Shown here: one piece after another, positions 31,379 to 36,834 of the stretch
Position numbering within the stretch: position 1 is the first letter of the stretch
Layout: every line of letters begins with the position of its first letter
Assembly: GCA_000156295.1 (NCBI GenBank)
Contig: DS999222.1
Span: 399,441 to 441,518, forward strand
Origin: a marine gamma proteobacterium HTCC2148
GTDB taxonomy: Bacteria; Pseudomonadota; Gammaproteobacteria; Pseudomonadales; Halieaceae
DNA length: 42,078 bases
Reading direction: 5' to 3'
Made by a program: the position numbers and the translations under genes
Notes under the pieces: generated by a model
Database searches by the model: none
What the model was told of the DNA's origin: nothing
What the model saw: only the letters and a program-made list of their open reading frames with translations

Positions 31379-32302
31379 CTACGCGTGTTCCAGCTCCAGG
31401 CCGGCTTTGTGCCTCAGTACTTTCGCTCTTCTGTCTTCACCATCGTGACTCCAGCCGGGTGCTTTCAGGATATAGCGTAACTTGTCAGCTGTTGTTTCGG
31501 CTCGTTTTACATCTGCCAGAATCGATGAATACTCGTGGGTTGCAACGTGTAACGGATGGTAAGACGTGATGTTGGTTGTCAGCCCATAAACGGGCGGCTC
31601 TCCTTCTGCTTCCGGAGAGAAAGTACCGAATAGCTTGTCCCAGATGATGAGTACACCTGCGTGATTGCAATCCAGGTAGCGGATGTTGGAGGCGTGGTGC
31701 ACGCGGTGATGAGATGGCGTGTTGAACACGTTCTCAAACCAGAGTGGTAGTTTGTCTATGAGCTCAGTATGCAGCCAGAACTGGTAAAACAGGTTGATGG
31801 ACATCATCAGGAAAATCATCATGGGATCGAACCCAAGTAAGGGCAGGGGCAGCCAGAAAGCATATTTGTGAACGCGTTCCGTGACGCCTTGTCGCAATGC
31901 GGTGGCGAAGTTCATTTTGACAGCGGAATGATGAGAGACATGGCCCGCCCATAATATACGTACCTCATGGTTGGCTCGATGCATACAGTAGTAGGTTATG
32001 TCATCAAGGAAGAACAACAACAGCCATGCCCACCATTGTCGTTGCACGATATCCGCCAAGGGACTGATGCTGTGCAGGAAGTAAAATGCGATCAGCGCCA
32101 GGAATTTCGGCAGGATATCCACAAAGACCACGAAGACAGTCATCCACAGCGAGGCAACAGTGTCTTGTTTCTCAAAGAGATGTCGCGACTGCTTGCGGTC
32201 AATGGCGACTTCGATCACCAGCGCCAACAGGAAAATTGGCAAGAAGACATACATCAGGTCATCTTTGGCGAACTCGTCTAGATAGAATTGCAGGTCATGC
32301 AT
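31379..32302 (-). CDS. Sterol desaturase / fatty acid hydroxylase superfamily protein
   Basis: A di-iron membrane oxygenase of about 307 residues. The histidine boxes are visible: CMHRANHEVR, HVSHHS and HHRVHHASN, separated by hydrophobic segments (for example YVFLPIFLLALVIEVAI and MMIFLMMSINLFY). Members hydroxylate or desaturate lipids at the membrane. The substrate here is unknown; the set of lipid-handling genes in the window suggests a fatty acid or steroid-like lipid. The longest frame begins with GTG at 32377, but homologue-like sequence begins at the ATG at 32302 (MHDLQFYLDEF), which I use. It is followed by the ChaC-like gene. Confidence 0.85.
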   Translation of the reverse strand: MHDLQFYLDEFAKDDLMYVFLPIFLLALVIEVAIDRKQSRHLFEKQDTVASLWMTVFVVFVDILPKFLALIAFYFLHSISPLADIVQRQWWAWLLLFFLDDITYYCMHRANHEVRILWAGHVSHHSAVKMNFATALRQGVTERVHKYAFWLPLPLLGFDPMMIFLMMSINLFYQFWLHTELIDKLPLWFENVFNTPSHHRVHHASNIRYLDCNHAGVLIIWDKLFGTFSPEAEGEPPVYGLTTNITSYHPLHVATHEYSSILADVKRAETTADKLRYILKAPGWSHDGEDRRAKVLRHKAGLELEHA

Positions 32303-32529
32303 GAAAGTGTCGCACTCGCAACAGAATCTCTCTTCTGTGGAGAGCACTGGATTAATTGATGGATCAGAAACTAGCACCCGGCGGGATGAAAAGTACAGCG
32401 AAAATATCGTGGTCGCTGGTCTCGCAAAGTCGTTGAGTGACTCGCGGCTTGGCGGGGTATCGGAAATTGGCTCGGTGGGTTAGCGGTTCTGGTCGAAAGT
32501 GATCTGCTTCTTTGGCAATAATCTGCGAT

Positions 32530-32552
32530 ATGAATTGCAAAATGCAATTCAT
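32530..32552. promoter_or_regulatory. Perfect inverted repeat, possible operator
   Basis: Ten-base arms (ATGAATTGCA at 32530-32539 and TGCAATTCAT at 32543-32552) flank AAA. It lies about 240 bp upstream of the sigma-54 regulator gene. Its length and symmetry suit a dimeric DNA-binding protein; the protein is unknown. Confidence 0.5.
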
Positions 32553-32667: not shown

Positions 32668-32704
32668 GCATGAATTTTGAAACAATCATTTGGAGATTTA
32701 ATAC

Positions 32705-32767
32705 TTAAATATTAAATATTAAATATTAAATATTAAATGTTAAATGTTAAATGTTAAGCGTTAAATC
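32705..32767 (+). repeat. Nine tandem heptanucleotides (TTAAATR) in the 5' leader
   Basis: Four copies of TTAAATA are followed by three of TTAAATG and two diverged copies (TTAAGCG and TTAAATC), without gaps. The array ends 24 bp before the first gene of the H-NOX operon. Because a 7-base unit does not match the helical repeat, changes in copy number would shift spacing between upstream sites and the ribosome-binding region. Confidence 0.9.
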
Positions 32768-32791
32768 CAGCAGAAGCCCAGAGAGACAGTG

Positions 32792-34219
32792 ATGAACTCC
32801 AAGATAAAAGTACTGATGGTTGAGGATAGCGTCTCGCTTTCCGCGATTTATATGGCCTACCTCGAAGGCACGGACTACGACCTGGTCACAGCTGAAACTC
32901 TAGGCTCTGCTCACGCGGCCCTGGGTGCCTTCAAACCAGATATTGTTTTGCTAGACATAGAGTTGCCGGACGGCAATGGTTTGGATTTTCTTACGGCGAC
33001 AACAGCGTTGGAAAACTCGCCGAAAGTTATAGTAATGACGGCCTATGGCACATCGGATATGGCCGTAGATGCAATCCGTAAAGGTGCGTTTGATTTTTTG
33101 ACTAAGCCTTTCGACGCCGCCAGGTTAATAGTCACGCTGGATAATGCTGCTGCTCAGATGACGCTTGGCAAACAGGTGCAGGCGCTGGCAAAGCTGGAGA
33201 GGGATAGCTACTGCAACTTTATCGGGAAGTCGCTAGCAATGCAGTCAGTCTACAAAACAATAGACTCACTGGCGCCCAGTGATGCTACCGCCTTTATTGT
33301 AGGCGAGAGCGGAACCGGTAAGGAACTCGCAGCCGAAGCCATTCACCAGCAAAGCCCAAGACGAGGTGCCGAGTTTATTGCGATTAACTGTGGAGCTATC
33401 CCGGGCGAGCTAATGGAAAGCGAACTCTTTGGTCATGTAAAGGGAGCTTTCACCGGAGCCAGTGCCAATCGCGACGGGGCTGCCTGCATTGCTGACGGCG
33501 GTACACTTTTTTTGGACGAGATATGTGAGATGGGCCTGGAATTGCAAAAAAAGCTCTTGCGTTTCATCCAGACGGGCAGTTTTCGTAAGGTCGGCAGTAA
33601 CACGCTGGAACAGGTAGATGTGCGCTTTGTCTGCGCCACCAATCGCAACCCGATTGTTGAAGTCAGTGAGGGTCGGTTTCGAGAGGACCTTTTTTATCGG
33701 CTACATGTGGTTCCCGTCTCTATGCCACCACTGCGAGAGCGTGAAGACGATGTGCTAATGATTGCAAACCACTTCCTGCGGCAATTTAGTACAGCAGCCG
33801 GAAAGAGCTTCGAAGGTTTCTCCGAAGACGCAGCAGTAGCTATCCAGCGTTATCCTTGGCCGGGTAACATCCGGCAATTGCAGAACACAATGCAGCAGGT
33901 TGTAGTGCTCAATGACGGCCCTCTCGTAGATGTGCAGACCCTGCCTGGCTCGATAACGAGCGGTGCTCTGGGAATCAGCAAAACGCGAGCAGTTGAATCC
34001 CCTGCTCCATCGCCAGTAGCGGCAAGACTGGTTGCTCCAGAGGAATCTCATCTGGCTCGCCGAGAGCAGATTGAACCACTGTGGTTAACGGAAAAAAAGG
34101 CGATAGAAGCTGCGATAGCTGCCTGCGAAAGCAATATTAATCGCGCGGCTGGTTTGCTCGAAATAGCGCCGTCTACTCTATATCGCAAGCTGCAGTCCTG
34201 GAAAGCAGCCGAGGTCTGA
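32792..34219 (+). CDS. Sigma-54-dependent response regulator, LuxO/NtrC type
   Basis: A 475-residue enhancer-binding activator. The receiver (3-120) has the phospho-acceptor Asp55 in VLLDIELPDGNG and Lys105 in LTKPFD. The AAA+ domain has Walker A GESGTGKE (171-178), the sigma-54 contact loop GAFTGA (218-223), Walker B GGTLFLDE (236-243) and YPWPGNIRQL. The C-terminal HTH (about 445-467) has INRAAGLLEIAPSTLYRKL. This resembles LuxO and other NtrC-class regulators. It activates sigma-54 promoters after phosphorylation. GAGAG sits 6-7 bp before the ATG at 32792; the GTG at 32789 is less likely. It is the first gene of an operon with H-NOX and a hybrid kinase, so the kinase most likely phosphorylates it. 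Confidence 0.93.
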   Translation: MNSKIKVLMVEDSVSLSAIYMAYLEGTDYDLVTAETLGSAHAALGAFKPDIVLLDIELPDGNGLDFLTATTALENSPKVIVMTAYGTSDMAVDAIRKGAFDFLTKPFDAARLIVTLDNAAAQMTLGKQVQALAKLERDSYCNFIGKSLAMQSVYKTIDSLAPSDATAFIVGESGTGKELAAEAIHQQSPRRGAEFIAINCGAIPGELMESELFGHVKGAFTGASANRDGAACIADGGTLFLDEICEMGLELQKKLLRFIQTGSFRKVGSNTLEQVDVRFVCATNRNPIVEVSEGRFREDLFYRLHVVPVSMPPLREREDDVLMIANHFLRQFSTAAGKSFEGFSEDAAVAIQRYPWPGNIRQLQNTMQQVVVLNDGPLVDVQTLPGSITSGALGISKTRAVESPAPSPVAARLVAPEESHLARREQIEPLWLTEKKAIEAAIAACESNINRAAGLLEIAPSTLYRKLQSWKAAEV

Positions 34220-34255
34220 ATACCAAAATCCCAAGAACTGAGGAGAAATTTTCGC

Positions 34256-34807
34256 ATGTACGGGGTCATCAATAATTCCTTGAAAGAGATGATTTATGAA
34301 AAGTTTGGTGAAGACAAATGGCAGCAAGTATTAAGCGTGTCGGGAGTGCCCGACGATTCATTTCTTAGTATGCGCAGTTACGATGACGCCCTCACTTATC
34401 GTTTAGCCAATGCCGCTTCCGAAGTGCTGGGCGCGCCAGTGAACGCATGCCTAGAAATGTTCGGGGAATACTGGGTGCTTGAAACTGCTACGAAGTCCTA
34501 CGGGATGCTAATGGATGCAGCCGGGAACGATATGTTGGAATTTCTTTCGAATATGAACAACTTACACGATCGAATCACCAGTACATTCCTTAATTATGTG
34601 CCCCCAGAGTTTTTTGTGGAATCAACCAACAATACCCATAAAATTCACTACGTTAGTCAACGCAAAGGACTGATTTCATTCGTTGTAGGGCTTCTCAAGG
34701 GTTTAGCGACTCGCTTTGGGCATGACCTTATTATCCTTGATCAATGTGATTTGGATGTGGACAAGGGCACGCACACGGTTTTTCAGGTAGAGCTTGTTCC
34801 GAAGTGA
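34256..34807 (+). CDS. H-NOX heme nitric oxide/oxygen-binding protein
   Basis: A 183-residue stand-alone heme sensor. It starts MYGVINNSLKEMIYEKFGED, the typical H-NOX N-terminus, and carries the proximal heme ligand His104 (NNLHDRI) and the propionate-binding motif Y-x-S-x-R at Tyr132, Ser134 and Arg136. Bacterial H-NOX proteins of this size bind NO and control an associated kinase or cyclase. The lack of an obvious distal Tyr would favour NO over oxygen, but I cannot confirm this from sequence alone. GAGGAGA lies about 10 bp before the ATG. Its stop overlaps the kinase start by 4 bp. Confidence 0.95.
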   Translation: MYGVINNSLKEMIYEKFGEDKWQQVLSVSGVPDDSFLSMRSYDDALTYRLANAASEVLGAPVNACLEMFGEYWVLETATKSYGMLMDAAGNDMLEFLSNMNNLHDRITSTFLNYVPPEFFVESTNNTHKIHYVSQRKGLISFVVGLLKGLATRFGHDLIILDQCDLDVDKGTHTVFQVELVPK

Positions 34808-36834
34808 GCGACTTTGCACCTATAGCTTTTGGCGATCTGCAGCGACTGTTCTCGGTTGTTATTAGCTTTGATGAGTCTATGCGGATTGTTTATGCCAGTG
34901 ACACCGTCCACACTTACTTACCTGAAGTAAAAAAATGCCCACAATTGAACGAAATCTTCAGCGTACTTCGCCCGGGAAAGCTGGAAACGTTCGCTCATGC
35001 ATTAAATTCATTGGATTCCCTGTGTCTGATGACAGCTGTTAATGGTCGTTTCGCAGTTCGGGGCCAGTTTTTAGTCGATAGTTTTAATGATGAGAAGGTT
35101 ATTTGCCTGTGTGGGTCGCCTTGGCTTTTCTGGATGTCGAGCAATTGTCCAGATGTGCGCTTGAGTTTAAGTGACTTTTCGGCTCAGGATGTTCAGCTTG
35201 ATCAGCTTTTCTTTATGACAACAGAAAAACAGATGGTCGAAGATCTTGAAAACCTAACGGCAGAATTAACAGAGACAAAAAATACGCTGGTAAAGGCCCA
35301 TGATGCTCAGCGCCGATTTTTTGCTCAGATGAGCCATGAAATGCGCACACCTCTCAACGGTGTAGTAAGTGCCATCGGGTTGCTCGAGTCCCAATCTCTT
35401 GATCAGAAACAACGACAGCTTTTAGGACTGGCGAGTAGCTCTTCTGACAACCTGATGGAGGTGATCAATTACGTATTAGACTTATCCAAGATGGAACTGG
35501 CTGGTGAGGAACGAGACAGTATCTTTGACTTACCCCAACTGCTGCGCTCTATCCTGGACATTACCGGCGCCAAGGCAAAAGAAAAGTCGTTAGAGTTGGT
35601 GTTGAAGCTTGGCTCAGGCGTTCCACATTGCTGCAGTGGCAACGCTTCGCGTTTACGTCAAACACTGTTAAATCTCACGATGAATGCTATTAAATTCACG
35701 GATAAAGGCTCTGTGATTATTGAGGCGGTAAAATTGTCAGGTGAAGATCCAAATTGCCTGCTCAAATTCAGCGTCACTGACACCGGTGCTGGAATCGCTA
35801 GCGTGGAGAAAGAAAGAATCTTTGAGCCATTTTGGACGGCTCAACCAGAGGGGTTGGATCATCCCGATTCCGGGACGGGCCTTGGTCTGGATATAGTGCG
35901 TCGAAATGTTGAATATATGGGCGGAAAAATGGACCTGAAGTCAGAGCTGGGGTCAGGTTCGACGTTTTGGTTTGACTGGCCCACAACCGCTGAGTCAGCG
36001 CTTACTGTCGCAGATATGACAGTTGCTAAAACGCAGATTGCCGACCCGGGGACTAAGCTCTCCGGGAAAATTCTACTGGCAGATGATAACGAGACAAACC
36101 TGATACTTGGCGCGATGATTATTGAATCATTGGGCATAGAAGTTGCCACTGCGCATAATGGCACTGAGGCCGTAGCTGCTGCATTGAATGACCACTACGA
36201 TCTGGTATTGATGGACATCCACATGCCCGACTTTGATGGTTTGGAGGCGACACGACGCATACGCGAAATGAAAGCAATCGAGGTGCTTCCCATCGTTGCA
36301 TTGACCGCGCTCGCCTATGAAAAAGAAAAAGAGAGATGTATCGGGGGTGGCATGAATGGCTATCTGACGAAGCCTATTGTGAAGCAAGAGTTAATGAATG
36401 AGCTAGGCAAGTGGCTACCCTCGAGCAACCAACTTTTAGCGGGAAAAAATTCCATGAATTCTGATAGCGACAGTCGCGATAGTTATTTAGATGTCGACTT
36501 ATTTGATAGTGATGTGTTCGAAGAACTGAAACGACAGATTGGAGTCGACAATCTGGAAACCGTGCTGGCCAAAGTAGCCGCTGAGGCCTCGCAGCGTTGG
36601 ACGGATCTGGTCGCAGCTGATGCATGTGATGACGAGGCTGGTGTTCAGCGCAACGTCCACAGTCTTTCCAGTATTTTCCGGAGTGTCGGTTTAATGCACG
36701 TGGGTGACAAACTGGCTTCGATCGAGGGTAAATTGCGCACTGGAGAGAAAGTCGAAGATGGTTGGTTGGAATCACTAGCGATCATTAAAACCGAAAGTCT
36801 AAAGGCGCTCGAGCGGACACTAGCGAAGCATTAG
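34804..36834 (+). CDS. H-NOX-associated hybrid histidine kinase with receiver and HPt domains
   Basis: A 676-residue soluble kinase, the partner of the H-NOX. The N-terminal region (about 10-145) looks like the HNOBA domain (FSVVISFDESMRIVYAS...DVQLDQLFFMTTEKQM). A coiled coil follows (about 140-170), then HisKA with His178 (QMSHEMRTPLNG), the ATPase with Asn294 (LTMNAIKF), DTGAGI and GTGLGLDIV, a receiver (about 422-535) with Asp471 (LVLMDIHMPDFDG) and Lys523, and a C-terminal HPt domain with His619 (NVHSLSSIFRSVG). It therefore carries every phosphotransfer step up to an external receiver, presumably the sigma-54 regulator. It begins with a GTG overlapping the H-NOX stop (GTGA). Confidence 0.93.
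   Translation: MSDFAPIAFGDLQRLFSVVISFDESMRIVYASDTVHTYLPEVKKCPQLNEIFSVLRPGKLETFAHALNSLDSLCLMTAVNGRFAVRGQFLVDSFNDEKVICLCGSPWLFWMSSNCPDVRLSLSDFSAQDVQLDQLFFMTTEKQMVEDLENLTAELTETKNTLVKAHDAQRRFFAQMSHEMRTPLNGVVSAIGLLESQSLDQKQRQLLGLASSSSDNLMEVINYVLDLSKMELAGEERDSIFDLPQLLRSILDITGAKAKEKSLELVLKLGSGVPHCCSGNASRLRQTLLNLTMNAIKFTDKGSVIIEAVKLSGEDPNCLLKFSVTDTGAGIASVEKERIFEPFWTAQPEGLDHPDSGTGLGLDIVRRNVEYMGGKMDLKSELGSGSTFWFDWPTTAESALTVADMTVAKTQIADPGTKLSGKILLADDNETNLILGAMIIESLGIEVATAHNGTEAVAAALNDHYDLVLMDIHMPDFDGLEATRRIREMKAIEVLPIVALTALAYEKEKERCIGGGMNGYLTKPIVKQELMNELGKWLPSSNQLLAGKNSMNSDSDSRDSYLDVDLFDSDVFEELKRQIGVDNLETVLAKVAAEASQRWTDLVAADACDDEAGVQRNVHSLSSIFRSVGLMHVGDKLASIEGKLRTGEKVEDGWLESLAIIKTESLKALERTLAKH

Follow-up and report, generated by a model that had tools for sequence, protein, structure and literature searches.

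How far can a nitric oxide (NO) signal be followed through a single operon, from the heme sensor to the promoters that it may control? The question is raised by three adjacent genes in a stretch of 42,078 nucleotides (the window) from contig DS999222.1 of the marine gamma proteobacterium HTCC2148, whose genome comprises 4.33 Mb in 31 contigs. We propose, with a probability of roughly 70%, that they encode a self-contained NO-responsive phosphorelay whose activator acts on TTGCAWWWTGCAA enhancers and sigma-54 promoters, and whose targets are lowered by NO. According to excerpts of two papers, TTGCAWWWTGCAA is the upstream activating sequence (enhancer) of LuxO (PMC10162802, PMC11443567). The parts, their order and conservation, the boxes, the sigma-54-like sites and their linkage are observations made on sequence.

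Components of the operon

Three co-directed ORFs at 32789-36834 form the operon (Table 1). The sequence-only reading had described an H-NOX sensor, a kinase and a LuxO-like sigma-54 activator, with a 4-bp overlap of sensor and kinase, Asp55 as the phosphorylation site of the regulator and an HPt domain fused to the kinase. Order and domain make-up were borne out by the ORFs and Pfam, and the overlap is GTGA, at 34804-34807; an overlap of four bases was also found in 12 of the 21 relatives measured. The regulator start at ATG 32792 was right as to the reading frame, but the ORF opens at a GTG at 32789. Counted from that ATG, as are all residue numbers of the regulator, Asp55 indeed lies in the REC domain, followed by an AAA+ domain with GAFTGA at 218 and a Fis-type HTH (Response_reg 80.7 bits, Sigma54_activat 219.9 bits, HTH_8 37.2 bits). 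The likeness to LuxO also held: the top solved-structure match was LuxO (5ep0, 412.8 bits), and the NCBIfam LuxO model (NF041946) scored 585.3 bits, under its equivalog cut-off of 800 bits.

The HNOB domain of the sensor (PF07700) scored 154.3 bits against a cut-off of 25.5, with His104 as the predicted proximal heme ligand and YxSxR, a motif of H-NOX proteins, from Y132. In the kinase, HisKA (58.2 bits), HATPase_c (77.9 bits) and Response_reg (89.1 bits) all exceeded their cut-offs, and the N-terminal HNOBA domain just reached its own (24.0 against 23.4 bits), no single stretch passing alone. The predicted phosphorylation sites were His178 of HisKA, Asp471 of REC and His619 of HPt.

The fused HPt domain received a mixed verdict. 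His619 was conserved in all 21 relatives with the region covered (22 relatives minus L034, whose sequence stops short of the HPt), and an AlphaFold model of the kinase C-terminus, built from a four-row alignment, gave a helical bundle with a pLDDT of 84.8. Its best PDB match was HptB (7c1i, TM 0.86, Foldseek E 0.034), none being found at E 0.001. On the other side, the Hpt model (PF01627) scored 17.3 bits and did not reach the Pfam cut-off of 24.6. HPt domains usually have a lysine three residues after the histidine; this residue was Ser in the window kinase and Lys in 3 of 21 relatives. No free-standing HPt was found, as all five PF01627 matches in the genome, the operon's own kinase included, lay in ORFs of 694-1495 aa, a search that a divergent small HPt could escape.

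The operon is flanked upstream by a divergent fatty-acid hydroxylase gene (31379-32377) and downstream by an ABC-F gene. The heptamer repeat upstream of the regulator (Table 1) might be variable in length and modulate expression. Elsewhere in the window, a perfect ATCTAC x8 repeat occupies 195-242 inside ORF 154-858.

Table 1. Features of the operon, its upstream region and the predicted target loci
Feature	Position	Strand	Basis or context
Palindrome ATGAATTGCA-AAA-TGCAATTCAT enclosing the LuxO-type box	32530..32552	.	Sequence match
Heptamer tandem repeat ATTAAAT x8.7	32696..32757	+	Between LuxO-type box and regulator
LuxO-like sigma-54 response regulator	32789..34219	+	Pfam, NCBIfam, solved-structure match, key residues
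H-NOX heme NO sensor	34256..34807	+	Pfam, key residues
H-NOX-associated hybrid histidine kinase	34804..36834	+	Pfam, key residues
HPt domain, predicted to fold as a helical bundle, His619 within a helix	36517..36831	+	Residue conservation, structure model
Box 87 bp from sigma-54-like site	C26:34028		Before csrA (PF02599, 89 bits)
Box 190 bp from sigma-54-like site	C29:45411		Before CS1-type chaperone-usher pilus operon
Box 161 bp from sigma-54-like site	C27:26750		Before Phenol_MetA_deg outer-membrane protein and sulfatase

In the proposed mechanism, NO-free H-NOX would leave the kinase active, and phosphate would pass from His178 to Asp471, on to His619 and finally to the LuxO-like activator at Asp55. 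In its phosphorylated form, the activator would bind TTGCAWWWTGCAA enhancers and open sigma-54 promoters, and would tune its own operon via the upstream box. NO-bound H-NOX would turn the kinase down, so that target expression would fall with NO present. Vibrio serves as the model for the path of phosphotransfer, for the direction of the NO effect and for the autoregulation, and we also infer the NO response and the DNA binding by the regulator.

LuxO-type boxes and predicted targets

Considering that sigma-54-like sites were seen before exopolysaccharide genes, we searched for the LuxO box. Four of nine upstream stretches with such sites in relatives had an exact copy. In the window, an exact LuxO-type box, TTGCAAAATGCAA, lies at 32535-32547, its end 245 bp ahead of the regulator's ATG, and is the single exact match observed against 0.11 expected. 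The best box before the regulator was exact in six of 14 relatives, had one mismatch in two, two in another two and three in four; these 14 are part of the 23 cassette loci. No sigma-54-like site scoring at least 5.5 was found within 350 bp of the window's box on either strand, and the hydroxylase gene was thus rejected as a target. Because the regulator's box is without a following sigma-54-like site, and because luxO is autorepressed in V. harveyi according to an excerpt of PMC3482212, this box is probably autoregulatory.

The genome contained five exact copies of TTGCAWWWTGCAA, compared to none in a reversed control. Allowing any middle triplet gave seven places versus one in the control, and allowing up to one mismatch gave 12 versus seven. 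The sequence-only reading had regarded the target genes as unknown, whereas candidates are predictable from the box together with sigma-54-like sites. Three of the four other exact boxes sit before sigma-54-like sites of protein genes (Table 1), and the targets that we propose for this genome are a second copy of csrA, a pilus operon of the CS1 type, and a pair of genes for an outer-membrane protein and a sulfatase. The box-linked csrA is one of two in the genome, the other lying in the window near 14.7 kb. The pilus operon encodes a chaperone with PapD_N and an usher with TcfC/CooC_C domains; Pfam found no match for its three small genes. Second boxes with one mismatch lie 24 bp from the sulfatase box and 30 bp from the pilus box. 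The identity of the targets suggests that the operon controls surface-attachment genes, such as those for pili and, in relatives, for sticky polysaccharides.

Several other boxes were set aside. Those at C7:17585 and C23:55188 are within ORFs, and the only sigma-54-like match at C26:116081 scores 5.5 and overlaps the box. The one-mismatch boxes at C27:46275, 94889 and 144175 had no sigma-54-like site over 5.0.

For statistics, a sigma-54-like site was counted if it scored at least 6.5 on an ad hoc scale of our own, lay 50-250 bp from the box and pointed away from it. Such sites accompanied three of seven boxes in this genome (p 2.6e-4) and 14 of 38 in relatives (p 1e-14, four of the 14 coming from one G137 region), compared to a background rate of 2.0% in the same loci. 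Ten control palindromes occurred at 10 places with no sigma-54-like site, which is little informative with 0.2 expected. Of the 26 genomes with the regulator (called at E 1e-100), 20 had the box, as did 33 of the 119 without it (Fisher 4.5e-6); within family f1 the counts were 18/24 and 16/66 (p 1.8e-5). These p-values overstate the case since the genomes are related, and many loci were sampled because they held the box or the cassette. The six regulator-bearing genomes without an exact box were G003, G018, G019, G063, G082 and G086, and G107 had six boxes without a regulator at that threshold.

These counts bear on whether another activator binds the boxes, the cassette having itself as its only transcriptional target. 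The 33 box-bearing genomes without the regulator would fit this idea, as would the three other full-length NtrC-like regulators of this genome, which are 38-40% identical. However, the box tracks the regulator across genomes and stands before it with at most one mismatch in 8 of the 14 relatives examined, and the next best regulator in the genome scores 284.6 bits against 1045.8. We therefore consider another activator unlikely. The probabilities that we attach to the alternatives here and below are not mutually exclusive.

Boxes were also seen beside other regulators. A region of G137 (L175:3067-13001), a genome without an H-NOX match, carries a LuxO-like regulator and a kinase-like neighbour, divergent from short secreted-protein genes in a pilin-like order. 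This region also has sigma-54-like sites and four LuxO boxes, and no Pfam domain was found in the three of its proteins tried. The H-NOX loci L091 and L094 (G038 and G015) include a more remotely related sigma-54-type regulator (257-267 bits), with LuxO boxes nearby.

Distribution and neighbours of the cassette

H-NOX was present in 42 of the 145 genomes searched, and the order regulator, H-NOX, kinase in 22, the window's included. The recurrence of this order argues against a chance arrangement. The 22 comprise 20 of the classified H-NOX loci found by script, G064 assigned by position and the window; 47 other H-NOX loci were taken, of which 40 were classified and seven were left unclassified for lack of a hit when the window's H-NOX was the query. 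All 22 belong to family f1, identified as Halieaceae by two named members, G013 (Candidatus Litorirhabdus singularis) and G049 (Halieaceae bacterium MAG). In G082 the reading frame of the regulator is broken by a stop. The cassette was also found in a Pseudomaricurvus contig (L032; NCBI family Cellvibrionaceae). A MAG contig titled Polyangiaceae (L034) carries it too, with an H-NOX identical to that of G003, and is thus probably misbinned. In the wider class, an H-NOX match at E 1e-30 was obtained in two of 369 genomes, one being the window's own; the locus of the other (G455, 44% identity) showed no such regulator or kinase within 1.5-kb flanks (tblastn, 1e-10).

A tree built from H-NOX and kinase together placed the window with G013 (support 1.0), away from its congeners G002 and G003. 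The regulator was likewise closer to G013 (80% identity) than to G002 (70%), whereas the adjacent ABC-F protein was closer to G002 (84%) than to G013 (72%). This thin comparison of a tree and one flanking gene suggests that the cassette moved within the family. The gene order around the ABC-F gene differed among the three relatives read, and an empty-site comparison gave no result.

Neighbouring genes were counted in the 23 cassette loci outside the window, including L057, with Pfam domains taken from cluster examples rather than from every member. A gene of a WecG/TagA/CpsF-STAS cluster lay within four genes of H-NOX in 12 of them, often accompanied by glycosyltransferase, SLBB/Poly_export or DUF6492 genes, and in G026 additionally by sugar transferase, MatE and sulfotransferase genes. 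Several of these exopolysaccharide-adjacent loci carry both a LuxO box and a sigma-54-like site, and the exopolysaccharide genes beside the cassette may be its targets in many relatives. We do not claim such targets in the window's genome, where a query search for the WecG-STAS gene, run without a positive control, found none and the sole Poly_export locus had no exact box.

In 7 of the 23 loci, a response regulator of one HD-GYP cluster was found nearby instead. L062, which belongs to this cluster, carries an HD-GYP-type domain and shows a likeness to NosR (172 bits, under the cut-off of 400). These neighbours would suit a c-di-GMP output, in which cross-talk from the H-NOX kinase would act mainly on an HD-GYP or GGDEF regulator, leaving the LuxO-like gene as a side branch, and the second H-NOX of the genome adjoins a member of the same cluster. 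The only regulator adjoining in the window is nevertheless the LuxO-like one, and c-di-GMP plays no part in the evidence from boxes and sigma-54-like sites, which makes a mainly c-di-GMP output improbable for this operon.

The second H-NOX (L051:8704-9270, G000:C7) adjoins ORFs with weak kinase matches as well as the response regulator. This locus is perhaps a separate c-di-GMP arm.

Relation to known NO pathways

Vibrio is already known to use the route from H-NOX through a hybrid kinase and HPt to LuxO or SypG; the novelty lies in the packaging and in the proposed regulon. Excerpts of PMC12369376 and PMC10162802 describe in V. fischeri a route HnoX-HahK-SypF/LuxU-SypG-syp, in which, as proposed here, an NO sensor inhibits a hybrid kinase and an HPt leads to a LuxO-like sigma-54 activator and polysaccharide genes; the SypG sites in Pqrr1 overlap TTGCAWWWTGCAA. 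However, hnoX and hahK form an operon there, with the HPt proteins (SypF, LuxU) and SypG encoded by separate genes, whereas regulator, sensor and kinase-HPt share one operon here. The predicted targets in this genome (csrA-2, pilus and sulfatase pair) also differ.

In V. parahaemolyticus and V. harveyi, the available part of PMC6759604 gives the route H-NOX-HqsK-LuxU-LuxO, with NO-bound H-NOX inhibiting the kinase. An H-NOX-linked hybrid kinase likewise feeds LuxO, but the HPt is a separate LuxU common to the quorum-sensing kinases and the output is Qrr RNA. The earlier comparison with a Vibrio relay of separate HPt and LuxO thus agrees with these published excerpts. That the operon itself is a Vibrio-type quorum-sensing arm, with a true LuxO, several kinases converging on a LuxU-like HPt and a Qrr small RNA output, has in its favour the LuxO matches, the LuxO-type box and the position of that box, reminiscent of qrr1 adjoining luxO (PMC11443567, excerpt), but is improbable, given the lack of a free-standing HPt among the five genome matches, the absence of Rfam matches to Qrr in the window and the four box loci scanned, the three boxes with sigma-54-like sites before protein genes and the regulator score under the LuxO cut-off.

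The relay that we favour, from H-NOX to a dedicated sigma-54 activator, can also be set beside Shewanella oneidensis, where an H-NOX kinase works with response regulators and HnoC is a transcription factor (PMC8738867, available part). The HnoC/HnoD output is control of a c-di-GMP phosphodiesterase with HnoC feedback, as opposed to a sigma-54 activator encoded in the same operon as the sensor here. As far as that review was accessible, H-NOX in the characterised bacteria covered mostly acts on c-di-GMP or feeds a shared relay for quorum sensing with NO as one of several inputs, and its Table 1 names no partner of this kind. Furthermore, we found no published one-operon form of H-NOX, kinase and sigma-54 activator in the openly accessible literature.

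More tentatively, and with the odds somewhat against it, the cassette may be an NO switch that is both mobile and autonomous, with a regulon rewired via a short enhancer. It would act on neighbouring exopolysaccharide genes in many relatives and on the second CsrA and a chaperone-usher pilus here, so that NO would reset both translation control and attachment via a single sigma-54 activator. A sigma-54-driven csrA paralogue would tie NO sensing to post-transcriptional control. The LuxO-type box outside vibrios bears on the origin of LuxO and SypG. Since the route from NO to promoter is seemingly contained in a single operon whose DNA target can be read, the control of genes by NO could be reconstructed and quantified one component at a time.
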